In this document: in pieces, positions 29,435 to 54,431 of the stretch
How the letters are laid out: each line of letters opens with the position of its first letter
How positions within the stretch are numbered: position 1 is the first letter of the stretch
From: Oceanospirillales bacterium
GTDB taxonomy: Bacteria > Pseudomonadota > Gammaproteobacteria > Pseudomonadales > Balneatricaceae
Direction of reading: 5' to 3'
Length of the DNA: 64,000 nucleotides
Assembly: GCA_018223185.1 (NCBI GenBank)
Contig: JAAEYW010000014.1
Coordinates: 1-64,000, forward strand
Made by a program: the position numbers and the translations under genes
Notes under the pieces: model-generated
Database searches by the model: none
Seen by the model: only the letters and a program-made list of their open reading frames with translations
What the model was told of the DNA's origin: nothing

Positions 29435-30832
29435 GTGTACAGACTTTTTTCACTCCCTTATCTGCAGAATACCACTGTCTATTTTGAACGCATCCGGCAT
29501 CTGACTGCACCGGTGTTTCTCGATAGTGGCAAACCTGCTGGCCGTTATGGGCGTTTCGATATTATCTCTGCCGCCCCTGAAGCCCGACTCAGCTATAAGG
29601 ACAATGTTACCCGGCTTACCACCGCAGCCACGGATGAACAGCTCATTGGCAACCCCTTTGCTCATCTGCAACAACTGTTTGCAGGCTATCAACAGCGCTG
29701 CCCTGAACCGCAGCAAGCCGAGCTGAAAGAACTGCCTTTCTGTGGTGGCCTGCTGGGCTATTTTTCCTATGACCTGGGGCGCAGCCTGGAAACACTGCCC
29801 GAACAGACCGTCGCCGATATAGACCTGCCCGACATGCAGGTGGGCATCTACAGCTGGGCGGTCGTGGTCGACCATGAAAACAACACCGCTCAGCTGGTAA
29901 CCACGCCACTGATCGATACCAACCAGGCCGATACTATTCTGCAATTGCTGAACAATGATGCCCGGACAGCAAGCGGCGACTTCATTCTGGCAGCCCCGTT
30001 TCAGAGCAATATGAGCGAAGCGCAATACCACAACTCGCTCAACAAGATTGATCAGTACATCCACTCGGGTGACTGTTATCAGGTTAATTTTGCCCAGCGC
30101 TTCAGCAGCACCTATGAAGGTGATCCCTGGGCTGGCTACAAGCTGATCAGAGAACATGCCCCAACGCCCTATTCGGCATATATTGAAACGGCTGAAGGCG
30201 CGATTCTGTCGCACTCCCCCGAGCAGTTTCTTGAAGTGTGCGACAACCGCGTCACCACAAAACCGATCAAGGGCACACGGCCAAGAGGCGACAACCCGGC
30301 ACTGGATGCACAGTTAAAACTGGCGCTGCATGACAGCGAGAAAGACCGGGCCGAAAACCTGATGATCGTCGACCTGATGCGCAACGATATCAGCAAAGTA
30401 TGCGAACACGGCAGCGTCCGGGTGCCCAAGCTCTTTGCCGTAGAGTCCTATGCCAATGTACATCACCTGGTCAGCACCATCACCGGCAAACTGGCCGCGG
30501 ATAAAACCCCGATTGACCTGCTGGAACACAGCTTTCCCGGTGGGTCGATCACCGGCGCGCCGAAGATCCGTGCCATGGAAATTATCGAAGAACTGGAGCC
30601 CCATCGCCGCTCTATATACTGCGGCTCAATCGGCTACCTCAGTTTCTCCGGCCAGATGGACACCAGCATAACCATCCGCACACTGATCTGTCAGAACGGC
30701 CAGATACACTGCTGGGCCGGCGGCGGCATCGTCGCCGACTCGGAAACCGCTGATGAATATCAGGAAACCTATGACAAGGTGAATAATCTGCTGAAGCCTT
30801 TGGAGAAGACTATTGGTAAGAGCAGTGGCTAG
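29435..30832 (+). CDS. pabB: Aminodeoxychorismate synthase component I
   Basis: 465 residues of the chorismate-binding superfamily. Conserved segments: PIKGTRPRG, HSFPGGSITGAPKIRAME and the C-terminal GGGIVADSETADEYQET. PabB makes 4-amino-4-deoxychorismate for folate with a glutamine amidotransferase partner. The PIKGTRPRG form (Lys present) favours PabB over anthranilate synthase TrpE. The start is GTG with TAAGG 8 bases upstream. The stop codon lies at the edge of repeat copy A. Confidence 0.92.
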   Translation: MYRLFSLPYLQNTTVYFERIRHLTAPVFLDSGKPAGRYGRFDIISAAPEARLSYKDNVTRLTTAATDEQLIGNPFAHLQQLFAGYQQRCPEPQQAELKELPFCGGLLGYFSYDLGRSLETLPEQTVADIDLPDMQVGIYSWAVVVDHENNTAQLVTTPLIDTNQADTILQLLNNDARTASGDFILAAPFQSNMSEAQYHNSLNKIDQYIHSGDCYQVNFAQRFSSTYEGDPWAGYKLIREHAPTPYSAYIETAEGAILSHSPEQFLEVCDNRVTTKPIKGTRPRGDNPALDAQLKLALHDSEKDRAENLMIVDLMRNDISKVCEHGSVRVPKLFAVESYANVHHLVSTITGKLAADKTPIDLLEHSFPGGSITGAPKIRAMEIIEELEPHRRSIYCGSIGYLSFSGQMDTSITIRTLICQNGQIHCWAGGGIVADSETADEYQETYDKVNNLLKPLEKTIGKSSG

Positions 30833-30950
30833 ATGTCACTGCGTGACTTGCTAGTGGTTAGACGCGACTGCGTCGCTTGCTAGAAAAAGCGCTGGCTCAG
30901 TGGATTTAAGGGGTTCAGGGGCAAGAAAATAGATCCTTCCCCTTTTTTCT
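30829..30950 (+). repeat. Hairpin-module repeat, copy A
   Basis: Two modules (30830-30854, stem TCAC/GTGA; 30858-30883, stem CGAC/GTCG) with shared flanks TAGAYG and CTTGCTAG, followed by a tail ending in a GGGG...CCCC hairpin and T run (30917-30948). It starts inside the pabB stop codon region, so it is the pabB 3' end and probable terminator. Confidence 0.85.
30917..30948 (+). terminator. Terminator-like tail of repeat copy A, after pabB
   Basis: GGGG plus AAG pairs with CTT plus CCCC around a ten-base loop, then six T. The same tail recurs in copies B and C. Confidence 0.6.
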
Positions 30951-30992
30951 CCTAGCCTAGAGCCATTCTCTCCCCACCTAATATAGATATGA

Positions 30993-31877
30993 TTAGGCAT
31001 ACTCTGATAACTCTTTAATCAGCCATTCTCTGAAGACAGTGACTTTGCGTAAGTTTGCACTGAAAGGTGATACCAATAAATAATACGTTAGCCCCGGTAA
31101 AGAGCAGTCATCATCCATAGTTTTTAACCAACCGTTCTGCACCGCCATTTTAGCTAATACCGAGCTAACCAGCGCTATTCCCTGACCGGTTAAAGCGGCT
31201 TGAACAACATGATCTTCCTGATCAAAGTAACTTATCTTTGGGGCGGATATATTGGCGTTAAACGTTTGAAGCCACTTTTCCCAGCTTATTGACGGTAAGT
31301 CTTTGTTCTTCCATCTGGTCTCTATATAAGTGGCGTTAGTTAAATCCTTACAACTGTTCAAATAACCCTCTGTTGCATAGCCAGCAAAACGTTCGGTCAC
31401 CAGCTTTACCGCAGTTGTATTTTTCTCAACATCACGACCATATCTTATTGCGAGATCAATGCGACGATCGCGCCTGATATCAGCAAGCTCCTCTCCGGTC
31501 CTTATCGCAACCTGAATATCAGGGTGTTGTTTATAAAACCTAGCCAGATTGGGAACAAGCCACATTGAGGCAAAAGACGTCGTTGTGGCTATGTTCAACA
31601 CAGACTGCGCATCGGATATTTCTTCAATTGCCGTTGATATCTGCTGCAGCGCCTGATGGGCAACAAGTGCAAACCTGGCACCTTCTTGAGTCAGGACTAT
31701 TGAGCGGACTTTTCGTTCGAACAGCAAAACCCCCAGCCGGTCCTCTAAGTTTGATATTTGGTGAGATATTGCCGTTGGAGTGATATTCAGCTCACCAGCG
31801 GCAGCTTTAAAACTACCTAATCGTGCAGCAGCCTCAAACCCTTTGATTTGATTCAGTTGAGGTAAGCGAGAAAACAT
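30993..31877 (-). CDS. LysR family regulator (GcvA-like) divergent from azoR
   Basis: 294 residues. N-terminal winged HTH (FEAAARLGSFKAAAGELNITPTAISHQISNLEDRLG) followed by the two-lobed inducer domain. The AVSHQ/AISHQIS sequence is the GcvA subgroup. It reads away from an NADH:quinone reductase gene with a long palindrome between, the usual arrangement for LysR control of the divergent gene. Confidence 0.9.
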   Translation of the reverse strand: MFSRLPQLNQIKGFEAAARLGSFKAAAGELNITPTAISHQISNLEDRLGVLLFERKVRSIVLTQEGARFALVAHQALQQISTAIEEISDAQSVLNIATTTSFASMWLVPNLARFYKQHPDIQVAIRTGEELADIRRDRRIDLAIRYGRDVEKNTTAVKLVTERFAGYATEGYLNSCKDLTNATYIETRWKNKDLPSISWEKWLQTFNANISAPKISYFDQEDHVVQAALTGQGIALVSSVLAKMAVQNGWLKTMDDDCSLPGLTYYLLVSPFSANLRKVTVFREWLIKELSEYA

Positions 31878-31879
31878 AG

Positions 31880-31920
31880 ACTTTACTCATAGATGAAACC
31901 TTCTCATCTATAAGTAAAGT
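31880..31920. promoter_or_regulatory. Large palindrome in the lysR/azoR intergenic region
   Basis: ACTTTACTCATAGATGA (31880-31896) and TCATCTATAAGTAAAGT (31904-31920) are inverted with one mismatch in 17 and a 7-base spacer. It begins 2 bases upstream of the lysR start codon, so binding there would block lysR and could activate azoR. Confidence 0.75.
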
Positions 31921-31998
31921 TTTACCATTTGTCAACAAGCCCGGCTTTGCAAATAATTCCCGACACAGCGTAATTCATAACAAACCAGGGAAAATCAT

Positions 31999-32685
31999 AT
32001 GACCGCTATACTTCATATCGATGCAAGTGCACGTAAAGAACGTTCTATTTCAAGGGCCTTAGGCGAGAAATTCAAACATCAATGGCTCTCAGAAAAACCC
32101 GCAGATCTATTTATCTATAGAGATATTGGCAGCACACCACCAGACTTTATATCTGAAAGCTGGATTGCAGCTGTCTTCACCCCCGAAGAGAAAAGAACAG
32201 ATGAGCAAAATTTATTGTTAGCATTGTCTGATGTGTTAATTGAAGAGTTATCAGAGGCTGACGTCATTGTCATATCCACTCCGATGTACAACTACGGAAT
32301 GCCTGCATCACTGAAAGCATGGATTGACCAGATTGTCAGAATAAACAAGACCTTTACCTTTGACCTTAACCGTGGTGATTTTCCATTAGAGCCTACCCTG
32401 TCAGGAAAATTTCTCGTGCTTATGACATCTTGTGGCGAGTTTGGCTTTGAAGAAAACGGAGCACGGGAAGCGATGAATCATTTAGGCCCCCATCTTCGAA
32501 CACTCAGCAAATACCTTGGCGCAGATGAAATACATGAAATCAACGTGGAATACCAAGAGTTTGGTGATAAACGGCACAAGCGGTCAATTGAAAGCGCTTA
32601 TAAGTCAATTCCGGAATTAATAAAACGAATTACCAAAAAGCTTGCTTCCCCAGGAAGCCCCTGTAAAGAACGCTGCCAGGATTAA
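31999..32685 (+). CDS. FMN-dependent NADH-azoreductase/quinone reductase (AzoR-like)
   Basis: 228 residues with a flavodoxin-like fold: N-terminal LHIDASARKERSISRALG (FMN phosphate loop) and STPMYNYGMPASLKAWIDQIVR (isoalloxazine loop), diagnostic for AzoR. It reduces quinones and azo compounds with NADH. The last ~15 residues (SPGSPCKERCQD) extend beyond the usual 200-residue family length. Control by the divergent LysR protein is likely. Confidence 0.88.
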   Translation: MTAILHIDASARKERSISRALGEKFKHQWLSEKPADLFIYRDIGSTPPDFISESWIAAVFTPEEKRTDEQNLLLALSDVLIEELSEADVIVISTPMYNYGMPASLKAWIDQIVRINKTFTFDLNRGDFPLEPTLSGKFLVLMTSCGEFGFEENGAREAMNHLGPHLRTLSKYLGADEIHEINVEYQEFGDKRHKRSIESAYKSIPELIKRITKKLASPGSPCKERCQD

Positions 32686-32872
32686 ATGTAATCCATTATG
32701 CGCTCTTCAATTCTGATCTGACCTGGTTCATGACTACCTTCCAGTTTTGCTAGATTCGCTTCTGTACGGGCAGCCACTCCCTTGATACTTTCGTGATCTG
32801 GCAATAGCTAAAATCAACTGAACTATACTTTAATTTGAACTATGAACCGGGTCCAGAATTGGAGGATTTGTT

Positions 32873-33127
32873 ATGTTCAAACCTACACTTATGCTGGCAG
32901 CTGTAGCCGCTACACTATCTATGCAGGCTTTCGCGGGTCACTGCCCGATGGACGCTAAGGCCATCGATAATGCTCTCTCCCGCAGTGATCTTAATGAAAT
33001 GCAGAAAGCAGAGGTACGGACTCTGCGTGATGAAGGCATGCGCCTTCACGCAAATGGAAAACACCGCGAGTCAGAAAAGACAATGGCTCATGCTATGCGC
33101 ATGCTGCTTGAATCCAGGTTAGAGTAA
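32873..33127 (+). CDS. Small secreted protein with N-terminal HCPMD motif
   Basis: 84 residues with a signal peptide (residues 1-21, cleavage after AFA). The mature protein begins GHCPMD and continues as an amphipathic helix pair rich in charged residues (AEVRTLRDEGMRLHANGKHRESEKTM). Small periplasmic proteins with this HCPMD start are common in proteobacteria, function unknown; the His-Cys start could bind a metal. TTGGAGG precedes the ATG and TATACT lies about 50 bases upstream. Confidence 0.8.
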   Translation: MFKPTLMLAAVAATLSMQAFAGHCPMDAKAIDNALSRSDLNEMQKAEVRTLRDEGMRLHANGKHRESEKTMAHAMRMLLESRLE

Positions 33128-33219
33128 GCTTAATTCTGAACAGCCTTTGCAGCGATGTGATGGACGCCCTTCCGACTGTCGGTGTCTATTTCTGCAATGA
33201 TCACAGCAGGCATAAGAGA

Positions 33220-33345
33220 GCCGTGTCTAGACGTCACTGCGTGACTTGCTAGTGGTTAGACGCGACTGCGTCGCTTGCTGGAAAAGGCATTGGTTCAGCG
33301 GTTTACGGGATTTTTGGCAAGAAAATAAATCTGTCCCCTTTTTCT
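33220..33345 (+). repeat. Hairpin-module repeat, copy B
   Basis: The closest relative of copy A: modules with stems TCAC/GTGA (33228-33252) and CGAC/GTCG (33255-33281), then GGAAAAGGCATTGGTTCAGC and a tail with TTGGCAAGAAAATAAATCTG and CCCCTTTTT. It lies 93 bases after the small secreted protein gene in sense orientation. Confidence 0.85.
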
Positions 33346-33534
33346 CCGCACCACAGTCAGAAATCTGATGAGGCTGGGGGTTCGGGTTCAGGCAGCAGTT
33401 GCGTGTGGCATTACCAGCAAAGGACCATGACGCAGCTCAAAAACGCCACGAATAAATCAGGCATTATCCAATGCCTATTTAAAATCCCAGGGGGGGTATA
33501 AGTTACGTGATGGCCGGAGCAAGCTTCACTGTGA

Positions 33535-33657
33535 CAAATGAATCGCCCTCGGTTGTGGCTTCCTGCTTCACCCTGCCTCCTGTATCCCTTCTGTCATGTG
33601 CGAACCCACATGCAGGGTGTTGTGGGGGCTGAGGGTTAGAGGCCCTCGGCTACCCTA
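33535..33657 (+). other. Possible group II intron 3'-end remnant (domains V-VI like)
   Basis: CAAATGAATCGCCC at 33535, a hairpin CATGTG/CACATG with a CGAAC-type loop (33595-33611) running into CAGGGTGTTGTG, then GCTGAGGG/CCCTCGGC (33628-33650) and TACCCTAT. The order resembles domain V, the GGTGGTGTG linker and domain VI of bacterial group II introns. No intron-encoded protein is present. A shorter relative lies at 45081. Confidence 0.35.
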
Positions 33658-33670
33658 TTATACGTTTTAG

Positions 33671-33976
33671 TTACTCAAATAATGGCCTGAAGAAACTCCG
33701 CTCATAGCTAATAATACAGCGCGTATCTTCTGCATATTTAAACGCTGCCACACACTCAGGGTCATTATATGAGTCCATTCGATATTGCTCGTACTCAGCA
33801 AAGCCAGGGAATGTAAATAATGCCATTGCAATATTATTAGCGCCCTCAGAGGGCAAAAAATACCCATGATGCTGCCCCCCAAACTTATTCACCAGAGGAA
33901 TCCATAGCTTCGAGTAGTGCTCGAACTCCTTGAGCTTGTATGGATCGATTACATAATTCAGATAGCAAGTTATCAC
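33671..33976 (-). CDS. NIPSNAP family protein
   Basis: 101 residues, a single dimeric alpha/beta-barrel NIPSNAP domain (MITCYLNYVIDPYKLKEFEHYSKLWIPLV...FTFPGFAEYEQYR...FFRPLFE). The start is GTG with AAGGAG 7 bases upstream. It is flanked by GTATAAC/GTATAAT heptamers like those of integron cassettes, with 22 bases between heptamer and start codon. Function of small bacterial NIPSNAP proteins is unclear. Confidence 0.85.
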   Translation of the reverse strand: MITCYLNYVIDPYKLKEFEHYSKLWIPLVNKFGGQHHGYFLPSEGANNIAMALFTFPGFAEYEQYRMDSYNDPECVAAFKYAEDTRCIISYERSFFRPLFE

Positions 33977-33997
33977 TTATTTCTCCTTGTGTGTGAC

Positions 33998-34069
33998 GTA
34001 TAACAGCTAATTTCAGTGCCCATTGGCACTATAATCCCCAGGCAGTATAATTTTGAAAACTCGTTATAT
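33998..34069 (-). other. attC-like site upstream of the NIPSNAP gene
   Basis: GTATAAC at 33998 and GTTATAT at 34063 are inverted core-like heptamers; inside are TTTC/GAAA short arms and an AGTGCC/GGCACT hairpin. A GTATAAT heptamer follows the NIPSNAP stop (33657-33663 on the other strand). It may mark a single captured cassette; the cores fit the GTTRRRY consensus only partly. Confidence 0.3.
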
Positions 34070-34241
34070 ATAAGCAGGTTAGCGATAATCAAGAGAGGTA
34101 TTTTACAGAATAATAGTATCTGTCGAGGCTGCGTCCCTGTTATAAACCTGCCTTGATCATAATACCCAGTTTTGTTAAATCAAAGAGTTAGTTCAATATT
34201 TTCAGCGTCAAAGGGTCAGGTCTTGAATGTTGCACAAGAGC

Positions 34242-34319
34242 TAATCTTTCCCTAGCGAGTCGCGCCGCGACGTTCTGGCAAGTGGCGAAGCCACGTCTAA
34301 CCACTAGCTACGGCTTTTA
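34242..34319 (-). repeat. Hairpin-module repeat, copy D
   Basis: Read on the minus strand: AAAAGCCGTAGCTAGTGGT, a module with stem TGGC/GCCA and CTTGCCAG, a second module GTCGC/GCGAC followed by TCGCTAG, and an AAAGATTA end. It starts directly after the stop codon of the metalloprotease gene. Confidence 0.85.
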
Positions 34320-35057
34320 TTAAGGCACGGATATATACAACCATTTATGATTCAGGAGAATCTGGATAAATGCATGCGGGTCGCTGAGTTGTGTCAGATG
34401 GAGATATGATTTCACCGCAAAACCCGTGGGATTAAATCCCATGTATGTCACGCTGATTTCATCTCCGGACTCCCAGGTCCCCGTCGCTTCAGCCTGAATG
34501 ATCCGTGCGCGTCTGGCAGCAGATAAAACCCCCAGCTGGGTGGCATGAGCCAGGTATTCCTGCGCGGCATTGTTCCACTGTTCCTCGGTGTTTTTGGCGT
34601 TATGCTGAAAGATTGCATGAGTGATCTCATGGGCTAAAGCGCCAACATAGTGCTCCTCATCAAACGGCATGTTATACATCTGCGGCGATTCACTACTACG
34701 TAATATCGCAGGCAGTGACATCATCAGAATACGGTCACTCTGGCGGTCATAACTGCCATATGCCATATAACCATCCTGGTTGATGATCTCGTCAATAATC
34801 TCTATGTTTATTGCTCTTTGCGGCTGCAACTGATGCCGATGAAGAAAGCTGATCGCCCTGTCAGCCGCATCACAAACATACCCGAGCATAGTGTCATCGG
34901 GTGCCGATATTAAAATCCCCGGGGTGGTCTCACAGCGATACTGACTTGCGACAACAGGAGACACCCAAAAAGCGGAAAGGATAACGAAACCATAACTGAA
35001 ACAATAAGTTAAAAAAAATATAGCTATCCGGAAAAATTTCAGCTGACAGGTTTTCAT
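34320..35057 (-). CDS. Exported putative zinc metalloprotease (HEITH)
   Basis: 245 residues with an N-terminal hydrophobic segment (residues 7-37) acting as signal peptide or anchor. HEITH at 143-147 and Glu167 in QEYLAH fit a gluzincin-type zinc site. Cys42 and Cys62 could form a disulfide in the periplasm. No family name is recognisable and no partner gene is adjacent. The stop codon abuts repeat copy D. Confidence 0.7.
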   Translation of the reverse strand: MKTCQLKFFRIAIFFLTYCFSYGFVILSAFWVSPVVASQYRCETTPGILISAPDDTMLGYVCDAADRAISFLHRHQLQPQRAINIEIIDEIINQDGYMAYGSYDRQSDRILMMSLPAILRSSESPQMYNMPFDEEHYVGALAHEITHAIFQHNAKNTEEQWNNAAQEYLAHATQLGVLSAARRARIIQAEATGTWESGDEISVTYMGFNPTGFAVKSYLHLTQLSDPHAFIQILLNHKWLYISVP

Positions 35058-35084
35058 ATGCTCATGCCCATTGCTAACAACTCT

Positions 35085-35205
35085 TTACGCGTTTACACGG
35101 TCCCCCAACCACTGATCCCAAACGGCTATCTGCTGTGAACCGGTTTCCGCCATAAAGTCAGTCAAGGTCTTTTCAAGCGCTTCGAAATCCGGCCTTTTCT
35201 GCTTT
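35085..35205 (-). pseudogene. Possible C-terminal remnant of a protein gene
   Basis: A minus-strand frame without a start reads ...KRPDFEALEKTLTDF followed by MAETGSQQIAVWDQWLGDRV and NA, then stop. The sequence has normal protein composition and a natural end, but an in-frame stop lies just upstream. It looks like the tail of a lost gene; I do not recognise the family. Confidence 0.35.
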
Positions 35206-35423
35206 CTTATTTAATATCCTCCTTGCACCGGATAATCGCAAAAGAAAAAAGGCACTGATCTGTTTTTCATTGCGGTTCCTCTGTGCCCTCTGTGGTATAA
35301 AATCTTCTTAAAAGTACAACGATGGCGCACAGCTATACCCATCGCTACGGGTACCCGTGACTCCCGCTGACCTTCTGACGTTAGTTCATTTATTTTGTCT
35401 CGCCCTGAAGCACCTCTTTACGC
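35206..35423. other. Intergenic region without a recognised gene
   Basis: AT-rich sequence with the phrase CCTCTGTGCCCTCTGTGGT near 35279, similar in style to CTGTGTCCTCAGTGGT at 49884. The latter also follows a degenerate module repeat, so the phrase may belong to the same repeat neighbourhood. No gene seen. Confidence 0.3.
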
Positions 35424-35496
35424 TTTTTCTATCAAGTCACGTAGCGACGTTCTGGCAAGTGGCTAAGCCACGTCTAACCACCAGCTACTGCTTTCA
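35424..35496 (-). repeat. Hairpin-module repeat, copy E
   Basis: On the minus strand: GCAGTAGCTGGTGGT, module with stem TGGC/GCCA (loop TTA) and CTTGCCAG, then GTCGC/GTGAC module and TTGATAGAAAAA. It lies 120 bases upstream of fdxA, antisense to it. Confidence 0.8.
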
Positions 35497-35616
35497 GAAG
35501 CGCAGCCATGTCTGGCCTCTCGCATACCAGTCTGCTTTTGTGTTGCTGACAACTATACTGATCCATAAGGCTTCTTTTAATCATCTGAACCGGCCGGTGG
35601 CCGGAAAGGATCTGTT

Positions 35617-35940
35617 ATGACATTTGTAGTCACCGAGCCCTGCATCAAATGTAAATACACCGACTGCGTTGAGGTCTGTCCGGTGGACTGCTTCTACGAA
35701 GGCCCCAACTTTCTGGTGATCAACCCGGAGGAGTGTATCGATTGCGCCCTGTGTGCACCGGAGTGCCCCGTCGATGCAATTCTGGAAGAAGACGAGGTAC
35801 CAGAAGACCAACTGACGTTTATTCAACTCAATGCCGAACTGGCGCAGCAATGGCCCAATATCACCGAAAAGAAACCCAGCCTGCCGGATGCAAAGCAATG
35901 GGATACTGTGACCGACAAGAAGCACCTGCTGGAGCGTTAA
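35617..35940 (+). CDS. fdxA: Seven-iron ferredoxin (3Fe-4S + 4Fe-4S)
   Basis: 107 residues. Cluster motifs: [21 protein letters not shown] at the N-terminus and [16 protein letters not shown]; the C-terminal helical extension ([20 protein letters not shown]) is typical of FdxA of Azotobacter/Pseudomonas type. Cytoplasmic electron carrier; a possible acceptor for the NifJ enzyme in this genome, though not linked by position. Confidence 0.94.
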
Positions 35941-37133: not shown

Positions 37134-37162
37134 ATATCGCGTCTGTTGTCGATTGTTGCCGG

Positions 37163-44911: not shown

Positions 44912-45030
44912 CCAGACCGCGCTTCGCGCTTGCTCGTTATTCGACGCGACTGCGTCGCTTGCTCGAAAAAACGTTGGTTCAGTAGTTTTATGGTAGTAAG
45001 GGGCAAAAGAATACATCTGTGCCCTTTTTA
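44903..45030 (+). repeat. Hairpin-module repeat, copy C, with terminator tail
   Basis: AAGCCGTAGC overlaps the Rieske gene stop; module stems GCGC/GCGC (loop TTC) and CGAC/GTCG with CTTGCTCG ends follow, then ACGTTGGTTCAGTAG and a GGGC...GCCC hairpin with five T (45001-45029). It is placed to terminate the suf operon. Confidence 0.85.
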
Positions 45031-45080
45031 GCAGGACTAAAATAGAAATTAATCGATGGATAGGGCTAACTGCACGATCG

Positions 45081-45122
45081 CAAATGAAACGCCCGGTGTG
45101 AACCAGCATGCAGGGGGTTGTA
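45081..45122 (+). other. Short group II intron domain V-like remnant
   Basis: CAAATGAAACGCCC, then GGTGTGAACCAGCATGCAGG and GGGTTGTAC match the shared parts of the element at 33535 (CAAATGAATCGCCC, TGTGCGAACCCACATGCAGG, GTGTTGTG) without its inserted segment. It lies between the suf operon and the cassette array. Confidence 0.35.
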
Positions 45123-45146
45123 CAAGTAGAGGGGGCAAAACTAAAA

Positions 45147-45169
45147 AGGGGCTTTGAGCCCTCGACTTA
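45147..45169 (-). terminator. Terminator of the first methyltransferase cassette
   Basis: On the minus strand GAGGGCTCAAAGCCCC runs into five T: stem GGGCT/AGCCC with loop CAA. Confidence 0.7.
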
Positions 45170-45195
45170 CGAGCTTTTCTACCACGCTGTTTTGA

Positions 45196-45816
45196 TCATT
45201 GGTGCTTTTTAGCAACGATAAAAATTGATTCCGTCGCAGGCTGCCATTCCAGCTCAACGCTAAAGCCGGCATTGATCAACTTCGACAGTAGCTCCTGCTT
45301 ACCCAAGCGATTCACATAAGGGGCGAAACCAAAGGCCTGCATAAGGGGAATCAACAATCGCCAGAAGAAACTGACTTCCTTGATCAGCACGGTGCTGGAG
45401 ATGAAAATACCCTCTGGTTTCAACAACCGGTGCACCCTTGAAATTGCCGCCTCAACATCCTCGAGGAGATGCAATACGTTGAGGCCCAAAACGGCATCAA
45501 AGCTTTCTGCTTTAAACGCGAGATTATCTAAGGTGCCCTGCTGGAAGCTGATATTTTCAATACCTGCATTCCTTGCCCTCTGTTCAGCAATCTCAAGCAT
45601 CTTGTCCGATATGTCGGTGGCGACAATATGCTTGACGCAGGGGGCATGGATAATTGCCGTACTGCCAGTACCGCATCCGAACTCCAATATGGACCAGTCC
45701 GCTCGGAAGTACTCCTGTGAGATTGCCAATTTCTTATGGTAAGCGGCCTCGTCCCGAACCGGGCTTTTGGCGTAGCGAGGTGCACTTTTGTTCCAAAACG
45801 CCTTCGGCTCCTTCAA
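45196..45816 (-). CDS. Class I SAM-dependent methyltransferase in a cassette array
   Basis: 206 residues from a TTG at 45816. SAM-binding motif I is LEFGCGTGSTAI, followed by the acidic end of strand 2 (VATDIS) and VLGLNVLHLLEDVE. The C-terminal part (ISSTVLIKEVSFFWRLLIPLMQAFGFAPYVNRLG) is hydrophobic, as in methyltransferases acting on lipids or small hydrophobic molecules. An attC-like site lies 68 bases upstream. Cassette-borne methyltransferases of this type are of unknown target. Confidence 0.85.
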   Translation of the reverse strand: MKEPKAFWNKSAPRYAKSPVRDEAAYHKKLAISQEYFRADWSILEFGCGTGSTAIIHAPCVKHIVATDISDKMLEIAEQRARNAGIENISFQQGTLDNLAFKAESFDAVLGLNVLHLLEDVEAAISRVHRLLKPEGIFISSTVLIKEVSFFWRLLIPLMQAFGFAPYVNRLGKQELLSKLINAGFSVELEWQPATESIFIVAKKHQ

Positions 45817-45883
45817 TTCTCTGTCCCCATTTTTACGTTCACTGATCCCTGACTACTATAATCGGGCAAAACGGTAGCATAAC

Positions 45884-45943
45884 GCCCAACATCAAGGGCC
45901 AGAGCGCAGCGACGGTCCAAATCCGAAGTGCGCTCTGTTAGAC
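45884..45943 (-). other. attC-like recombination site 1
   Basis: GCCCAAC at 45884 and GTTAGAC at 45937 fit RYYYAAC and GTTRRRY core boxes, 60 bases apart; AGAGCGCA (45901) and TGCGCTCT (45929) form a perfect eight-pair inner stem next to the right core. This is the architecture of an integron attC site. It separates the two methyltransferase genes. Confidence 0.65.
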
Positions 45944-46226
45944 GCACTTATATAAACATGTGTAAAGTACGTTACTAGTGCTGCACACAATGCCATTACA
46001 ACAAACGCTAAGGAATAAACAGGCAACCAAGACTAAAGGAGTCAAAGCCTTTTTTGATCACGATTCCTTAGCATTGTCTCCTCGTTGAAATCGTCTGCAT
46101 TTGAATATTATTTACCATCAACCAACAAAAAGCTAAGCACTAACAAAAAGGGCTCTGAAGCTCTCCCAGTTTAATGGCCTCCTTTAATTCGCCCCCCTTT
46201 AATTCCGGCGGTAGTTGATTGCTTTA
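45944..46226. other. Non-coding part of the second cassette
   Basis: A 10-base inverted repeat GCTAAGGAAT / ATTCCTTAGC (about 46008 and 46065) encloses a 48-base loop; an AAAAAGGGCTCTGAAG stretch near 46146 may belong to a weak minus-strand terminator. No further gene is seen. Confidence 0.4.
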
Positions 46227-46904
46227 TTACACAGCATATGCCACCAGCATCTCTGTAGCCCCTTTTTGAAACTGGTAATCAACAGGCTGGAGTGATGTCC
46301 GAACCCCGTTACCTTCTAGTGCTTCAATGACTGTAGAGAGGTGTTTTGAGCGCTTGCCGTCCAAGGAAAGCAAAGGATAAACCCTGACCTCTGTTGCAAC
46401 CCGGCAGAGCTCTTTCATACCCTCAATGTGCTGCGCTACATCGAAATGATCGCTGTAAAGGAAAAGAAAATGAGAGCACAACGCCAATTCGAACTGTTGG
46501 TCATCAAATGGGAGGGTTGGAAGAGAAGCGCATGTGTACCGACCGGCTTCCAAACCTGAATCGTAGTCAGATAGAAATTGCTGCATAGCCGCCATGCGCA
46601 CCTGACCTAACGCCGATACATCTTTGATGCTTTCCCAGATGTAATTATCTGAGTTTTGCTCCATCTGGCGCATGATCTGGGGATATACCTCTTCGATGCG
46701 AGAACGGATCTGGTCACCTGTGAACTGGTAAACAGGATCAACGGACACTACAGTGCCGCCACGTTGCGTCAGTTCTGCATTAAAGCACGCCGGGCCGTCG
46801 CCACAACCAAGTAAACGCTTGTCTAAATCGTCTTCCGACAGAGCAAAAACAGACCGATATTCTTCGAATGAGCGCCCCCATGGGACAATGCTATCCAGCT
46901 TCAA
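46227..46904 (-). CDS. SAM-dependent methyltransferase-like protein in a cassette array
   Basis: 226 residues from a TTG at 46904, chosen because AAAGGAG lies 8 bases upstream on the minus strand and the protein then begins MKLDSIVPWGRSFEEY, as in its relatives. LLGCGDGPACFNAEL is a variant SAM motif I; LELALCSHFLFLYSDHF-like region gives motif IV. Members of this family are frequent integron cassette genes of unknown substrate. The start lies about 20 bases after an attC-like site. Confidence 0.8.
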   Translation of the reverse strand: MKLDSIVPWGRSFEEYRSVFALSEDDLDKRLLGCGDGPACFNAELTQRGGTVVSVDPVYQFTGDQIRSRIEEVYPQIMRQMEQNSDNYIWESIKDVSALGQVRMAAMQQFLSDYDSGLEAGRYTCASLPTLPFDDQQFELALCSHFLFLYSDHFDVAQHIEGMKELCRVATEVRVYPLLSLDGKRSKHLSTVIEALEGNGVRTSLQPVDYQFQKGATEMLVAYAV

Positions 46905-46924
46905 TGCTGACTCTCCTTTATGAT

Positions 46925-46981
46925 GTGTAACGCCCAAAGCGGCGCGCGGAGAAGCCGTCCGACTGCCTTTGCTTGTTAGCG
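46925..46981 (-). other. attC-like recombination site 2
   Basis: GTGTAAC at 46925 and GTTAGCG at 46975 are inverted cores (TAAC/GTTA); CCAAAGCGG near 46934 and GCCTTTGC near 46966 form the second pair of arms. The site overlaps the end of the decayed gene to its right and sits just before the methyltransferase start, as between integron cassettes. Confidence 0.55.
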
Positions 46982-47690
46982 CATTCCTTGTTTAGCACTC
47001 TGGACTTCCAAAACCCTATCCCAATATCCATCTTCTTGTAGATAGTCATGAAGCCCTAAATGATTATGCAATTAAATTCTATCGGCGAATAGCTGGATAT
47101 CATCAATGCCATCCAATGGATCTTCTCCCTTCCATGCTGCGAAATCAAAAATTACAGCAATCGACTTTTTTGTATATCTTATTACCGTTATGCCTATGCT
47201 CCGGTGATAAGAAGTAATTACGAGACAAAGCACCAGAGTTTCTATCGAGCAATGAATAGAATTTGTACCTCCAGAATTCTTCATTTTCTTCGATTATTTC
47301 TATGTGTGGTGGTTCTGTAATTAGTGCTTTTAATTTTTGATATCGAACTATCATTCTTGCCACGGTCAGCCACATAACTCGACTGTTTTCTGGCGGAACA
47401 TCATCATCTCCACCACTAAATAATTCATAAGTTTTCTCAAGTGATACTTTAGCTTCAGACAAGAATGCTTCTGATGCTTTGAATTTGTCCTCTTGAAGGT
47501 GCCTTGTGGTTGTTGTCCGATACAAAGAAAGTGCAACAGTTGCACTAGCCAATATTGCTAATGACCCGACAGCCTGTATTGAAGGCACATAAGAATGAAT
47601 CCAATCGAATGTTTGACCAGATGGAATCAATACTGATAATAAGATCAGTAATACTAACGAAACTAAAGCGCCAATCAAAAAGTAAAGCAT
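46976..47690 (-). pseudogene. Two-helix membrane protein gene with frameshift and internal stop
   Basis: The frame from 47690 encodes two N-terminal membrane helices (LIGALVSLVLLILLSVL and AVGSLAILASATVALSLY) and a soluble domain, then stops at 47145. Removing one A from the A6 run at about 47165 restores NKIYKKSIAVIFDFAAWKGE and DPLDGIDDIQLFADRI. The stop at 47072 is followed in frame by LHNHLGLHDYLQEDGYWDRV and LEVQSAKQGMR, ending exactly in the attC core at 46976. Both breaks suggest a dead cassette gene; a sequencing error could explain the first. The start codon is 6 bases from a GTTAGAT core. Confidence 0.6.
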
Positions 47691-47695
47691 TGAAT

Positions 47696-47755
47696 ATCTA
47701 ACCTCGCTTGAGCGCTAACAGCTAACAGCTAACAGCTAACAGCTAACAGCTAAAG
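47696..47755. repeat. Core-like heptamer GTTAGAT plus (GCTAACA)n tandem repeat
   Basis: ATCTAAC (47696) is a GTTRRRY-type core on the minus strand. From 47714 the 7-base unit GCTAACA occurs five times exactly, then once as GCTAAAG. The unit itself (TGTTAGC on the minus strand) resembles the core of attC site 2. It marks the right end of the cassette array. Confidence 0.7.
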
Positions 47756-48049: not shown

Positions 48050-48127
48050 TAATCTTTTTCTAGCGAGGCGCGCAGCGACGTTCTGGCAAGTGGCGAAGCC
48101 ACGTCTGACTACTAGCAACGGCTTTTA
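48050..48127 (-). repeat. Hairpin-module repeat, copy F
   Basis: On the minus strand: AAAAGCCGTTGCTAGTAGT, module TGGC/GCCA with CTTGCCAG, second module GTCGC/GCGCC-like and CTCGCTAGAAAAAGATTA. Very close to copy D. It is antisense in the region just upstream of the helicase gene. Confidence 0.85.
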
Positions 48128-49508: not shown

Positions 49509-49539
49509 TCGATAAGTCTTCCACTAAAGGAGTCAGCAC

Positions 49540-49561
49540 TAAAGGGGTCAACCCCCCTTTA
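49540..49561 (+). terminator. Hairpin terminator after the helicase gene
   Basis: TAAAGGGG pairs with CCCCTTTA; only a short T run lies within the stem end. Confidence 0.55.
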
Positions 49562-49610
49562 CTGTGCGATCCCGGATAAACAACTGAATTATATTCATTT
49601 GGCAATGCCC

Positions 49611-49622
49611 AACCAATTGGTT
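49611..49622. promoter_or_regulatory. Perfect 12-base palindrome AACCAATTGGTT
   Basis: It lies 54 bases upstream of the 36-residue membrane peptide gene and looks like an operator for a dimeric regulator. No regulator gene is adjacent. Confidence 0.4.
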
Positions 49623-49675
49623 AATATTTAATCATTCAATTTAACCAACTGCTGTGTATTAAATCCGGAGTAACG

Positions 49676-49786
49676 ATGCAACTGATCAAAAGCCTGCTGA
49701 AACGCATCGCATTTCTTTACGGAGCATTGTCACTCAGCATGTTTCTGTTCGGATTTATCACCGCCCTCCGTGTTGGTCTTGGTTAG
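49676..49786 (+). CDS. 36-residue single-helix membrane peptide
   Basis: ATG at 49676 with CCGGAG 5 bases upstream. MQLIKSLLKRIAF carries a positive N-terminus and LYGALSLSMFLFGFITALRV a single membrane helix, ending GLG. Too short for family recognition, but the ribosome site, palindromic operator and sequence make a real small protein likely. Confidence 0.55.
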   Translation: MQLIKSLLKRIAFLYGALSLSMFLFGFITALRVGLG

Positions 49787-49802
49787 TGATCCACCTCACC
49801 GT

Positions 49803-49842
49803 CTAAATCTTTGCCTGGAAAGCGGCTAAACCACATCTATCC
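49803..49842 (-). repeat. Hairpin-module repeat, degenerate copy H
   Basis: On the minus strand: GGATAGATGTGGTTTAGCCG followed by CTTTCCAGGCAAAGATTTAG. The module flanks and the AAAGATTWAG end are recognisable, but the stem is damaged. It lies between convergent genes. Confidence 0.55.
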
Positions 49843-49992
49843 TCTGTGCTCCAATGAAAAAAGTAATGAAGTACTTTTCACTGCTGTGTCCTCAGTGGTA
49901 AAAAACCGTTAAAGTTAAAAAGGGACCGCGACGCGTACGGAGGGTATGTCTGCGTCGCTCCTCAAGGCAATAACCGGGTCATTCAGTCCCGG

Positions 49993-50778
49993 TCAGACTT
50001 CGTTTTTTGGCGTTCCATCGCCGTCCTGATCACTACCGGTCCAGCGGTTGATAAGATCCACCGGCAACGGAAAAACAATCGTGTGGGTATTCTGGCCGGC
50101 AATTTCGGTCAGGGTCTGCAGATAACGTAACTGCAGAGCCTGGGGTTGTTTCGCCAGAGTCTGGGCTGCTTGCAGTAATTGTCCTGCGGCCTCCAGTTCA
50201 CCGGTGGCATGGATCACCTTGGCACGCCGCGAGCGTTCTTCCTCTGCCTGGCGGGCGATAGCGCGGATCATGCTCTCGTCCAGGTCGACGTGTTTCAGCT
50301 CTACATTCGCCACCTTGATGCCCCAGGCGTCGGTCTGCTTGTCCAGGATTTGCTGAATATCAGCGTTAAGACGGTCACGCTCGGCCAGCATATCGTCCAG
50401 TTCATGCTGGCCCAGCACAGAACGCAGGGTCGTCTGGGACAGCTGACTGGTGGCCTCCAGATAATTCTCCACACGGATGATCGCCCGTTCCGGGTCCACC
50501 ACCCGGAAATAGATCACCGCATTGACCTTCACTGACACGTTGTCCAGCGAGATCACATCCTGCGTGGGGACATCCATCACCACGGTGCGCAGATCCACCC
50601 GCACCATTTGCTGGATCACCGGAATCACGATGATCAGCCCAGGCCCTTTGACCCGGTAGAAACGTCCCAACAGGAAGATCACACCCCGCTCGTATTCGCG
50701 CAGAATACGGAACATGCTGATCAACAGCAGCAGGATAAAAACCACCGATGTCACGATAAAATACTGTGTAGCCGCCAT
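49993..50778 (-). CDS. Slipin (SPFH/stomatin family) membrane protein
   Basis: 261 residues from the ATG at 50778 (AGGAG upstream). One N-terminal membrane helix ([17 protein letters not shown]) followed by the SPFH/band-7 domain ([22 protein letters not shown]...) and a coiled C-terminal part ([26 protein letters not shown]). Slipins form membrane oligomers. The gene directly follows nfeD (stop and start 1 base apart), the standard pairing in which NfeD processes or partners slipin. Confidence 0.93.
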
Positions 50779-50779
50779 C

Positions 50780-52189
50780 TCATTTCTCCTGTTTGTCCGC
50801 GACAAGCATTAGTCCATCCACCGCTTTAACCCGCACCCGGTCGCCCGCTACCAGAGGGTCGGCACAGCGCACCGACCAGAGCTCCCCCTCGTAGCGGGCC
50901 AACGCCTGACCATCATCGCTGCGCTCGATAATCAGCGTCTGGTCAATCACCGCCTCTCGTCTGAACAGGTGCGGACGAAGTTGAGCCCGCACTGCCATCC
51001 CCAGCATTCCGAATACCATCAACCCGGTCACTATGGACAGGGACAGAATTACCGGAAGAGCGATCTGGTAGGCAGGAATATCGGTGTCCATCAACATGAT
51101 CGAACCCACCACAAACGCGATAAACCCGCCGATGCCGAATACACCGAAACTCGGCAGCATCGCCTCGGCGATTATCAGTCCGATACCCAGCAGCATCAGC
51201 CCCAGCCCCGCATAGCTGACCGGAAGGATCTGGAAGGCGTATAGCGCCACCAGCAGGCAGGTGAGCCCGAGAATACCCGGCAGTCCGAAGCCCGGGTTGG
51301 AAAACTCGAATACCAGGCCATAGAGGCCAATGATCATCAGCATATAGGCCACATTGGGGTTGGTGATCACCGCCAGAAACTCGCTGCGCCAGTCCGGGTC
51401 ATGTACTACACGGGGCGCGTCGGCAAGATCAAGGCGGTGCACCCGGGCACCGATCCTGATCTCACGCCCAGCCAGAGCGTTGAGCAGCGCCCCGGTGTCT
51501 GCGGCTATCAGGTCGATCACGCCAAGTTCCAGCGCCCGGCTGGCGCTCAGACTGGCCCCCTCGCGTACCGCCCGCTCGGCCCAGTCGGCATTGCGCCCTC
51601 GCAGCTCCGCCAGGCTGCGAATATAAGCCACCGCATCGTTGGTCACCTTGCGCTCAAGGGCGTTGCCGGGCTGAGGGATAGGTTGAGATTGCTCCGCGTT
51701 TCCCGCTTCAGGGACGATCTTATCAGGCCCGGATTCGCTGGGGGGTGGATCTCTCGGCGACGGTGTCAGAGGGCCACCGATGGAGACCGGCGTGGCGGCC
51801 CCCAGATTGGTGGCAGGTGCCATGGCGGCGATGTGGCAGCTGTACATGAGAAAAGTGCCGGCACTGGCGGCCCGGGCACCGCCAGGGGCGACATAACAGA
51901 TCACCGGGATCGGCGAAGCCAGAACCCCGGCGATCATATCGCGCATAGAGCTGTCCAGCCCGCCCGGGGTATTAATCCGGATCAGCACCGCGGCCGCCCG
52001 GGCCTCGACAGCCTGTTCAATGCCACGCACCAGATAATCTGCTGACGACGGACCCACTGCACCGTCCAGCTGCAGCATCCACAGTGTTCCCGGCGGTGTA
52101 TTCTGAGCGCTCGTCGGCAACGACATTCCCAGCACTGCCAGCAGCAGCGCGATCGGCAGACTCAACTTTACGATTTGCGCATACATCAC
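50780..52189 (-). CDS. nfeD: NfeD-family membrane serine protease
   Basis: 469 residues: signal peptide (residues 1-29), ClpP-like protease domain with catalytic Ser in [16 protein letters not shown] and [12 protein letters not shown], a proline-rich insert ([16 protein letters not shown]), a five-helix membrane domain and a C-terminal OB fold ([20 protein letters not shown]). Long NfeD1b-type protein acting with the slipin encoded next. Confidence 0.93.
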
Positions 52190-52547
52190 TATCGACCTTC
52201 TCTACCTATTAGGTATAGCACCTTAAGCACGCTACGGCGTTATGAAGAAGGCGATCGTTCACATTTTTGTATTTTCATGGGCCAGGCTAAAATCCGGCCA
52301 TATCTACGGGTTTCTATGCAAAACCAGGCTATCGCGAAATCTTAAAGGGGTTCACTCGGGGCGGTTTGGTCTGGGTGGTCAGGCGGGCAGTTGAGTGGGT
52401 ATTGAGTGGGTATTGATCGGGGCAGAGCGCCGATCGTTGGGGTGATCGCGGACAATAGCTATCCAATCACCCGGTTTAACACTCACGCCAATCGGCTCAT
52501 TCTAATTGGCCCTGCAGGCGGGCGCTGTACGCTTTTTCGGGCAAAGT
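52190..52547. other. Intergenic region without a recognised gene
   Basis: Contains a short direct repeat TTGAGTGGGTA twice (about 52391-52412). It should hold the nfeD promoter and the end of the Rho-paralog transcript; no terminator hairpin with T run is clear. Confidence 0.35.
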
Positions 52548-53504
52548 CTAACCACCCGCAATGGCGTCCAACAGCGCTTCATTCGTCGGGTATTTTTCCA
52601 GCAGTTCAACCAGTCTTCTGGCACCCTCGACGGGCTTAAGATGGGTAAGGCTTCTGCGCAACGTTCTGACCTTCTGCAGCTCGCCCGGACTCAGTAGTAG
52701 CTCTTCACGACGGGTGCTGCTTTTGGCAATATCCAGTGCGGGAAAAATCCGGTAGTTAGCGGCCTCACGTGACAGCACGATCTCCATGTTACCGGTGCCC
52801 TTGAACTCTTCAAATATAACCTGATCCATGCGGCTGCCAGTATCAACCAGAATGGTTGCCAGAATCGTCAGCGATCCGCCATTCTCGATCTTGCGGGCTG
52901 ATCCGAACAACTTTCGCGGTATCTCAAGAGCTCTGGCATCAACACCGCCCGACATTGTCCGGCCACTGCTCTTCTGTTCAGCATTATGGACCCGCGACAG
53001 TCGTGTGAGAGAGTCGATCACTATCATGACATCATGACCTTCCCCTGCTTCCCTGCGAGCCTTGTTGAGGAGTTCATCGGCCACCCGAACATGATGAGCA
53101 TAGCTTTCATCTGAAGATGAAGCATGGACTTCAGCCGGAACGCTACGCTTAAAATCAGTTACCTCTTCCGGTCGCTCATCAATGAGTAGTGCATACAGCT
53201 TTATCTCAGGATATGCCTGCCCCACCGCCTGACAGATATGCTTCAACATTGTGGATTTGCCCGACCCCGGTGGCGCAACAATCAGCCCCCGTTGCCCCAT
53301 ACCGATGGGTGATATCAGGTCTATCGCCCGGGTGCTGAACTGCTGAGAGCCGTTTTCCAGGCGAATACAGGGCGAAGGATGGATGGCGACGCCATTCAGA
53401 AAACGTTTTTGCGGGTCACCCTCAAACTGATCCCTGACTATTTCATCGACAGGTTTGGCATCTGTAGTTCTTTTCACCTTCAGACTCAGTGTTTTTTTTG
53501 TCAT
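52548..53504 (-). CDS. Rho-like ATPase lacking the N-terminal RNA-binding domain
   Basis: 318 residues, against about 419 for Rho. The whole protein aligns with the Rho ATPase domain: SPIGMGQRGLIVAPPGSGKS (Walker A), LLIDERPEEVTDFKRSV (catalytic Glu, Arg), VMIVIDSLTRLSR (Walker B), EEFKGTGNMEIVLSRE (R-loop Lys) and SSTRREELLL (arginine finger). The Rho_N helix domain and cold-shock-like OB domain are missing; only ~45 residues precede the ATPase. The Q-loop region (VHNAEQKSSGRTMSGG) differs from Rho. It may be a hexameric ATPase with another RNA partner or a Rho modulator. The main rho gene should be elsewhere. Confidence 0.85.
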   Translation of the reverse strand: MTKKTLSLKVKRTTDAKPVDEIVRDQFEGDPQKRFLNGVAIHPSPCIRLENGSQQFSTRAIDLISPIGMGQRGLIVAPPGSGKSTMLKHICQAVGQAYPEIKLYALLIDERPEEVTDFKRSVPAEVHASSSDESYAHHVRVADELLNKARREAGEGHDVMIVIDSLTRLSRVHNAEQKSSGRTMSGGVDARALEIPRKLFGSARKIENGGSLTILATILVDTGSRMDQVIFEEFKGTGNMEIVLSREAANYRIFPALDIAKSSTRREELLLSPGELQKVRTLRRSLTHLKPVEGARRLVELLEKYPTNEALLDAIAGG

Positions 53505-53606
53505 GTTATCGGTTTATCTCTCTGGAAAATTCACGGTGTTCTGATCTGTTTACAGATGTCTGATGAAACATTTTATATCAAAGGCTGACAGCCCATTGAT
53601 GTACTG

Positions 53607-54302
53607 CTAATCGTGAGCTGAAAGCGCTGTAACTTCGGCCTGAGTCAGGCTGCGCCAATGACCACTATCGACATCAAGTTCCAGACTTCCTATGCGTTGA
53701 CGATGCAGAGATTTAACTCTGTTACCGATGGCGAAAAACATCCGCTTCACCTGATGAAAACGCCCTTCTGTCAGGGTTAACAACACCGTATAGGGATCAA
53801 CAATGTGTAGTTTAGCCGGAAGTGTCAGACTGGACTCCCCCTGCAGCAGAATACCGTTCTCAAAACGTTTTGCGGCGTCAGACGATATGGGCTTAGACAA
53901 CCGCACTTTATAGACCTTTTCGCAGCGGTTTTTAGGCGATGTCAGATTGAAAGACCAGTGTCCGTCATCGGTAACCAGCACAAGGCCGGTAGTATCCGCA
54001 TCCAGGCGTCCGGCGATGTGTAGTTCAGTCACTTGATCGACATCCAGCAGGTTGAGTACCGAAGGATATTTCTCATCCACGTTTGAGCAGATCATATCCA
54101 TGGGTTTATGCAACACAAAATAGCGGAAAGGTCTGGTTGTTAATAATGCACCATCCAGCGTCACAACACTGTTCTTGTGAACCTGATGGGACACCGCAAG
54201 AACAACCGTTTCGTTGACGGCAACCCGACCACGCTCTATCAGGATCAGCGCTTCAGCCAACGTATAATGGGTGCTTTTACAGATAAATTTATCTAACCGC
54301 AT
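53607..54302 (-). CDS. rsuA: 16S rRNA pseudouridine synthase (RsuA family)
   Basis: 231 residues from the ATG at 54302 (an in-frame GTG at 54323 is possible). N-terminal S4 RNA-binding domain (MRLDKFICKSTHYTLAEALI) and synthase domain with catalytic Asp in AGRLDADTTGLVL; KVYKVRLSKPI and GRFHQVKRMF complete the motifs. RsuA modifies U516 of 16S rRNA; other members of the group modify 23S rRNA or U2605, so the exact site is tentative. Confidence 0.88.
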   Translation of the reverse strand: MRLDKFICKSTHYTLAEALILIERGRVAVNETVVLAVSHQVHKNSVVTLDGALLTTRPFRYFVLHKPMDMICSNVDEKYPSVLNLLDVDQVTELHIAGRLDADTTGLVLVTDDGHWSFNLTSPKNRCEKVYKVRLSKPISSDAAKRFENGILLQGESSLTLPAKLHIVDPYTVLLTLTEGRFHQVKRMFFAIGNRVKSLHRQRIGSLELDVDSGHWRSLTQAEVTALSAHD

Positions 54303-54356
54303 AACGTCAACTGATACCTGCACCTTCTTTCATGCTTAAAAGCGATCTTTAAATAC

Positions 54357-54380
54357 AAAAAAGAGCGCCAACGCGCTCTT
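54357..54380 (-). terminator. Terminator of thrH
   Basis: On the minus strand GAGCGC pairs with GCGCTC around GTTG, followed by six T. Repeat copy G lies between it and the thrH stop. Confidence 0.85.
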
Positions 54381-54431
54381 AATCTTTTTCTGGCAAGTGG
54401 CGTAGCCACATCTGACCAACTGGCAACAGCT
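54379..54431 (-). repeat. Hairpin-module repeat, copy G (single module)
   Basis: On the minus strand: GCCAGTTGGTCAGATG, stem TGGC/GCCA with loop TAC, then CTTGCCAGAAAAAGATTAAG. It starts 2 bases after the thrH stop codon and merges with its terminator. Confidence 0.8.

Follow-up and report, generated by a model that had tools for sequence, protein, structure and literature searches.

Results

A family of hairpin modules in the Amphritea window

We analysed a 64,000-nt stretch of DNA (hereafter the window: positions 1 to 64,000 of contig JAAEYW010000014.1, assembly GCA_018223185.1), whose host genus is the marine bacterium Amphritea, for a dispersed family of short hairpin modules with the consensus YTAG-A(A)C-stem-TNC-stem′-(T)TG-CTAG. 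The repeating unit is a hairpin of 4 to 7 bp with a TNC loop, set between heptads of the form TNGYTAG. A first-pass annotation, made from the letters of the window, had reported eight copies of this module, usually two in tandem, with stems that differ and stay paired between constant flanks. With a covariance model trained on 93 distinct 25-mers, selected by their flanks alone, we found nine strong modules at seven of the eight sites (E 2e-12 to 8e-5), and the stems that had been quoted are present at the sites; the eighth copy, at 49803, gave no match up to E 10 and is at most a decayed relic. Tandem pairs do occur at six of the seven confirmed sites, though four of the second modules (48060(-), 35429(-), 44913 and 34252(-)) score weakly, with E values of 0.11 to 2, and the site at 54379 holds a single module. 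By position, the features are the following.

30830..30854, plus strand: module 1 of a tandem pair, stem GTCAC/GTGAC, loop TGC, 33.0 bits; the trpE-like open reading frame (ORF) 29435-30832 takes its stop codon from the module's TAG (30830-30832)
30855-30861: heptad TGGTTAG, joining module 2 to module 1 at trpE
30859..30883, plus strand: module 2, stem GCGAC/GTCGC, loop TGC, 43.3 bits
33228..33252, plus strand: module, stem GTCAC/GTGAC, 42.2 bits
33257..33281, plus strand: module, stem GCGAC/GTCGC, 33.3 bits
34252..34273, minus strand: weaker second module, stem GTCGC/GCGAC, loop GGC (TAC in the relative G009), 9.5 bits, E 2
34275..34299, minus strand: module, stem GTGGC/GCCAC, sense to the gene at 34320-35057(-), 41.7 bits
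35429..35450, minus strand: second module, imperfect stem GTCGC/GTGAC, 13 bits, E 0.11
35452..35476, minus strand: module, stem GTGGC/GCCAC, loop TTA, 37.4 bits; absent or deleted at the orthologous place in G009
44913..44936, plus strand: module, stem GCGC/GCGC, loop TTC, 11.1 bits, E 0.53
44941..44965, plus strand: module, stem GCGAC/GTCGC, 21.9 bits
48060..48081, minus strand: second module, one mismatch (GTCGC/GCGCC, perfect in G009), 13 bits, E 0.11
48083..48107, minus strand: module, stem GTGGC/GCCAC, 40 bits
49795..49825, minus strand: the claimed copy at 49803, unsupported
54390..54414, minus strand: single module, stem GTGGC/GCCAC, loop TAC, 28.6 bits; it sits between the stop codon of a HAD-like gene and a hairpin with a T-run

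A search of the whole window against Rfam returned no match at the gathering score. A 101-nt stretch that begins inside three of the double modules is itself repeated with 70-79% identity (30847-30947, 33245-33345 and 44929-45029), and the one at 30847 runs into a terminator-like GGGG...CCCCTTTTTT.

Stem variation and pairing

We selected 225 modules by their flanks only, each in a distinct context. All five Watson-Crick pairs form in 195 of them, one mismatch occurs in 20 and more than one in 10, whereas 200 shuffles in which the 3′ arms were re-dealt left on average 34.8, and at most 47, fully paired. The perfectly paired modules comprise 14 different stems. In the alignment of the 93 distinct sequences, 91.8% of the cells pair and 108 are altered on both sides; the covariation score is 0.537 against 0.215 when shuffled, none of 500 shuffles scoring as high, and it falls to 0.027 to 0.219 when the partner is slid by one to three columns. 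The inner C-G pair is nearly invariant (90/93), the three middle pairs vary freely, and the loop is TNC in 254 of 262 hairpins. Stems that change and remain paired between constant flanks are thus a property of the family, in further copies as well as in those first described.

The first-pass annotation also took this covariation as a sign that the folded hairpin is selected, and here only part of the evidence agrees. The strong sense orientation behind stop codons described below argues for a role in RNA or at gene ends, but G-U is not over-represented among the mismatches of the sense strand (13 G.T, 15 A.C), which does not favour a constant selection at the RNA level. The fold of the whole 83-nt trpE array is ordinary (z -1.43 as RNA, -0.65 as DNA). 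The GNA mini-hairpin is a known DNA structure (works cited in PMC6307347); a C(GNA)G loop on the bottom strand might stabilise the DNA hairpin, though the ViennaRNA parameters gave it no advantage.

We compared stems at orthologous places in 54 ungapped rows out of 74, covering 30 of the genome's own modules. Of the 270 aligned pairs, 246 are the same; in 12 both bases differ but still pair, and in the other 12 only one base differs. Every double change belongs to a single locus (C10:159-378), and some of these are whole-module swaps, so that compensatory change in place is weak evidence. Neighbouring modules rarely share a stem (3 of 163 identical, 15.2 expected), partly because a few mixed pairs are very common; among distinct pair types, 2 of 60 have identical stems where 3.6 are expected, and avoidance between neighbours is not clear.

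Distribution across genomes

Model matches were counted at E≤0.1, with at most 150 candidates scored per genome, so that high counts may be low. The genome of the window (G000) has at least 90. Five others of the genus are also rich (G016 at least 133, G008 at least 129, G009 at least 112, G015 at least 102 and G011 at least 92), a lower group follows (G004 38, G013 35, G007 24, G005 18), and the remaining genomes are poor (G014 3, G010 and G006 2 each, G002 1, and none in G001, G003 and G012). A strict pattern occurred in 9 of 37 genomes, all of the same genus, and in none of the 20 relatives outside it. Elsewhere in the order, 9 of 114 genomes gave one model match each (E 2e-5 to 7e-3). The matches listed from a scan of the wider collection include single ones in four other taxa (L090, L103, L145 and L161), which we took to be chance matches to a pattern of 16 bases. 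To the extent of these searches, the family is confined to Amphritea.

Placement behind stop codons

A flank-only pattern placed 333 distinct modules, only 9 of which lie inside ORFs (called by a simple script, not a gene finder). The nearest stop codon within 100 nt is in sense orientation for 177 modules and antisense for 17, whereas GTRGGAG repeats in the same loci are balanced (21 sense and 20 antisense, or 6 and 5 with a stricter pattern). A terminator-like hairpin with a T-run follows within the next 150 nt in 50 of the 143 module groups that have a sense stop no more than 150 nt away, against 3.4 in shuffled sequence and 25 in the antisense direction. The trpE element is found at the orthologous place in G009, G016, G008, G011 and G015 and is decayed in G014; it is not visible at that place in G010, G006, G007, G012, G001, G002 and G003.

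Heptad spacing and turnover of arrays

Measured from the end of TTGCYMG to the next AC-hairpin, linkers of 0, 7 and 14 nt account for 19, 41 and 2 of 76 cases, the remaining 14 being spread over 1, 4, 12, 17, 18 and 19 nt. The commonest 7-mers are TGGTTAG, TGGCTAG, TCGTTAG, TTGTTAG, TTGCTCG and TAGTTAG. Our reading is that of a heptad repeat in which hairpins are embedded. Neither this heptad spacing nor the orientation rule nor the S23-like gene of the next section had been noted in the first-pass annotation.

Whole modules are gained and lost inside these arrays. Comparing loci between species, we counted 21 inserts, 18 to 250 nt long, that bring in a module or complete one; they were told apart by their first bases, and at least one event is counted twice (L163 against L007 and L251). 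Several are one hairpin unit, 21-30 nt long, inside an existing array, and others are longer; at the 54379 site, G009 has one extra and different module compared with this genome and with locus L122. Head-to-tail dimers make up 38 of 48 close module pairs. The alignment with G009 breaks beside modules at window positions 33221-34241, where 1.0 kb here faces about 5.7 kb of other sequence, and 44966-47744, where 2.8 kb faces about 1.4 kb.

Longer tandem units were also seen. Six modules in G009 are spaced 204-213 nt apart (L242 3745-5026), the module being part of a longer tandem unit, and about seven tandem 127-bp units at L061 (about 265320-266330 of G000:C43) combine a GTGGGAGCGGCG...CGCCGCGAT repetitive extragenic palindrome (REP) with a CTCG-type module.

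An S23-like gene flanked by modules in several genomes

Of the ORFs, 71 have modules on each side at no more than 500 nt; their largest cluster (six loci) encodes a 113-aa protein of family PF05635 (23S_rRNA_IVP, E 4e-33), which also matches TIGR02436 (four helix bundle); its neighbour valS forms the next cluster, with five loci. We found one solved relative of this S23-like protein, 2GSC (XCC0516), and PMC4990558 attributes the solved S23p structure to Xanthomonas campestris.

The gene and the modules occur together. A PF05635 gene is present in 11 of the 17 genus genomes, namely all ten with at least 18 model matches and G014 with 3, and the six genomes without it have 0-2 matches. The copies beside valS are bracketed by modules on both sides in G000, G016, G008, G009 and G011; in G015 the strict finder sees modules upstream only. 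Other copies (G004, G005, G014 and the second copies of G000 and G009) adjoin different repeats, with runs of CGAGCCA in G004 and of GTCCGAG in G014. In a test of 12 Amphritea copies (L311 and L313 left out), the two flanks matched each other by more than 6 above the shuffled maximum in ten, failing in G005 and G007. Behind the G004 and G005 copies, period-7 identity reaches 0.93 and 0.86.

The valS region is also a hot spot (L061 G000:C43:262000-277500 and L241-L245), with many same-strand module pairs in several species and differing genes between them; one such gene, an HTH_3 protein, looks like an antitoxin.

Flanks of S23-like genes outside the genus

A search of 369 gammaproteobacterial genomes found PF05635 genes in 68, among them the genome of the window, and we took 49 listed loci outside Amphritea, some of them several per genome: 29 returned by the search and 20 picked. 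The 350-nt flanks match each other beyond shuffles in 21 of the 29 (18 inverted) and in 12 of the 20 (9 inverted), together 33 of 49 with 27 of the 33 inverted; windows 750-1100 nt away gave such a match in 0 of 24 and 0 of 20 cases. A period of 7 (or 14) was the only best period to reach 72% identity over 42 nt. Period-7 flanks numbered 16 of 58; windows at a distance of 750-1000 nt gave 1 of 53, flanks of TrpE-family genes 0 of 40, and the second set had 7 of 40 against 0 of 40 controls. The heptad units differ from locus to locus.

We then sampled 100 kb from each of eight gene-bearing genomes and found seven heptad arrays and none at periods 8-11; six of the seven resemble the flanks of the S23-like gene in their own genome best, in four cases with a lead of one base in 14. 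Four samples taken as gene-free (G154 and G059 are recorded without a PF05635 match, G022 and G028 do not appear among the positives) held no heptad arrays and two arrays at periods 9 and 10. From these small samples, an association of heptad arrays with gene-bearing genomes is suggestive only.

Discussion

Relation to known repeats

The publications compared below are cited from excerpts, and each comparison holds for the parts excerpted. The modules are short, dispersed, extragenic palindromic hairpins, rare in ORFs and mostly fully paired, and the family is REP-like in kind. The first-pass annotation recognised no named REP or MITE family, and we likewise found no exact named one: the tag, in hairpins selected regardless of it, is CTAG in 111, TTAG in 92 and GTAG in 1 of 262, and by definition the family falls outside both the GTAG and the CGTC families. 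REPs carry GTAG or GT[AG]G tags, lie close behind stop codons and include sub-families with alternative complementary stem bases (PMC3733652, PMC8266576), so that covarying stems are not new as such. With the GTAG REPs, the Marinomonas REPtron Mb among them, the modules share short hairpins and a 5′ tetranucleotide, in some families also the 2-nt spacer and 3-nt tail (PMC3733652, PMC8266576), and the intergenic place close behind stop codons, sometimes supplying the TAG. They differ in their YTAG tag, in flanking no REP-associated tyrosine transposase (RAYT), and in their head-to-tail dimers, strong sense orientation, heptad linkers and TNC loop. The CGTC REPs, like our modules, have no dedicated transposase and a hairpin followed, on the bottom strand, by GTC, but their stems are of 8-9 bp with loops of 4-5 and head-to-tail dimers are negligible (PMC3733652), whereas the Amphritea stems are of 4-7 bp, mostly 5, with 3-nt loops and common head-to-tail dimers.

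Heptads are familiar from other bacteria, and the short tandemly repeated repetitive (STRR) sequences of cyanobacteria are heptanucleotide repeats. Excerpted descriptions cover GGGAATC in Xanthomonas and GGGGAYT in Nostoc (PMC4692102) and TAACTGA in Beggiatoaceae (PMC4679880). All share with our family the 7-nt unit and the intergenic location. Those of Xanthomonas and Nostoc that follow an ORF on its coding strand are mostly found within 0-50 bp of the stop, those on the other strand farther away; upstream most are close by on the non-coding strand (PMC4692102). Unlike the Amphritea modules, these heptads are described, in the excerpts, as plain runs with no hairpins and no named partner gene (PMC4692102, PMC4679880). 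A third comparison concerns the intervening sequences (IVS) of 23S rRNA, where inverted repeats bound an S23p ORF and tandem heptamers stand ahead of it (PMC4990558). The protein family, PF05635, is the same; those ORFs lie inside rRNA genes, whereas the Amphritea copies stand alone and accompany a dispersed family.

A proposed repeat system with an S23-like parent

We consider the family a genus-specific, REP-like heptad-hairpin repeat of Amphritea that is probably transcribed and whose parent element is most likely the S23-like gene near valS, an explanation that we hold at about even chances. The tandem arrays stand at gene 3′ ends, in sense, right behind the stop codon and partly ahead of a terminator; there they would be transcribed, and their hairpins may act on the 3′ end. 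The parent element would be the module-bracketed PF05635/TIGR02436 gene, the dispersed arrays its non-autonomous derivatives, as REPs are of RAYTs, and the S23-like protein may bind the repeat as folded DNA or RNA and aid its spread or persistence. What the computation establishes is that gene and repeat go together; how they would act is inference.

More broadly, S23-like four-helix-bundle genes (PF05635/TIGR02436) and heptad repeats could form a gene-repeat system comparable to RAYT/REP, which we put forward tentatively, at somewhat under even chances. The gene would lie between mostly inverted heptad arrays with related arrays scattered in the same genome, each gene lineage would have its own heptads, and the Amphritea system would have acquired variable-stem hairpins. 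If so, one kind of element would have given rise both to the heptanucleotide repeats of bacteria and to the intervening sequences of rRNA. Heptanucleotide repeats are described as over-represented and little studied (PMC4692102), and S23-like proteins as having no known function (PMC4990558); a link between the two would point to where the repeats probably come from and what the proteins probably act on, and would place a second partnership of gene and repeat next to RAYT/REP, one whose orientation rule connects it with gene ends. The literature that we searched, which left subscription journals mostly outside, names no S23-like gene with dispersed heptads.

Several observations weigh against giving the S23-like gene this role. 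The well-flanked copies are one orthologous locus within a module-rich region; the G007 copy is only 49% identical and has no modules beside it, and the G013 copy is partial. On a TrpE tree covering 13 of the 17 genomes, two changes suffice for the joint label, in our view a gain, and a joint loss in the G006/G010/G014 group, so the co-occurrence reflects few independent events. Within Amphritea, the better flank match is direct, not inverted, in 8 of the 10 passing copies, that of the second G000 copy is a GTGGGGGCCCC-type REP repeat and not a heptad, and period-7 identity on both sides of the six valS-type copies (0.38-0.48) is like that of class-wide controls (mean 0.40). Beyond the genus, TNC hairpins are not a common property of the flanks of S23-like genes (3 against 1 in controls), and the seven sampled heptad arrays come from only three of the eight gene-bearing genomes (G257, G260 and G383). 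According to the excerpts, mobile elements generally did not accompany the Xanthomonas heptads (PMC4692102), and for one IVS it is suggested that its S23p is not produced in vivo (PMC4990558).

Other explanations

The strongest alternative, which we nevertheless regard as unlikely, is an orphan REP family of the RAYT type, in which a Y1 (HUH) transposase, lost or unrecognised, mobilises the modules as single-stranded DNA; YTAG would be the guide, the CT of the trailing CTAG the cleavage site, and the S23-like gene a passenger in a module-rich region. The arrangement of tag, 2 nt, 5-bp stem and 3-nt tail does resemble the Marinomonas group 3 REPs, with a 5-bp stem 2 bases from GTAG and a cut at CT or CA (PMC8266576), Y1 genes occur in 12 of the 17 genus genomes, 11 of them over the cut-off, and the six genomes with at least 90 model matches each have at least one. 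But GTAG itself is found in a single hairpin, head-to-tail dimers dominate, and only 1 of 26 Y1 loci has modules in its 1.5-kb flanks, about 1.1 kb away and on one side (a looser pattern, applied to 10 Y1 loci, adds one match each in L202 and L206). Around the RAYT type of 148-149 aa, 6 of 8 loci show 6-22 GTAGGAG motifs; G007 has 24 model matches and no Y1 gene, while G006, G010 and G014 have Y1 genes yet 2-3 matches. A RAYT was therefore rejected as the partner, being not flanked by modules and tracking them poorly. The sole Y1/RAYT gene found in this genome (L062, G000:C17:46847) lies inside a different, classic GTAGGAG repeat array.

It is rather less probable that the arrays are a functional RNA element, tandem hairpins of the 3′ untranslated region that are immobile now and kept by selection at each site for mRNA 3′-end stability, ribosome clearance or termination. 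The sense orientation and the position behind stop codons agree with such a role, as does the small divergence of orthologous stems (36 of 540 bases in the 54 ungapped rows, with flanks on average 85% identical). The lack of a G-U excess, the ordinary fold of the trpE array as RNA, the coming and going of modules in the 21 inserts and the 0-3 model matches in 7 of the 17 genus genomes speak against it.

Covariation could also arise without selection. Quasipalindrome correction by template switching is a known mutational route, and it would maintain the complementarity of the arms with near-perfect pairing and few intermediates, as observed; but it would erode the unpaired AC and TTG bases and the TNC loop, which stay unpaired and conserved, and adjacent modules mostly differ in stem, so we think this improbable.

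Least probable of all, and very unlikely, is that the modules are integron-like sites of site-specific recombination flanking, in direct orientation, exchangeable genes near valS: same-strand arrays do have single genes between them and the ends of the G009 alignment at 33221, 34241 and 44966 adjoin modules, but these breaks may be simple homologous or illegitimate events, no attC architecture was seen, and an integron was rejected because the integrase (TIGR02249) neither tracks the modules nor, at the places listed, lies in the arrays read. Integron integrases over the curated cut-off occur in 7 of the 17 Amphritea genomes (at L300, L301 and other loci), and a fragment is present in this genome.

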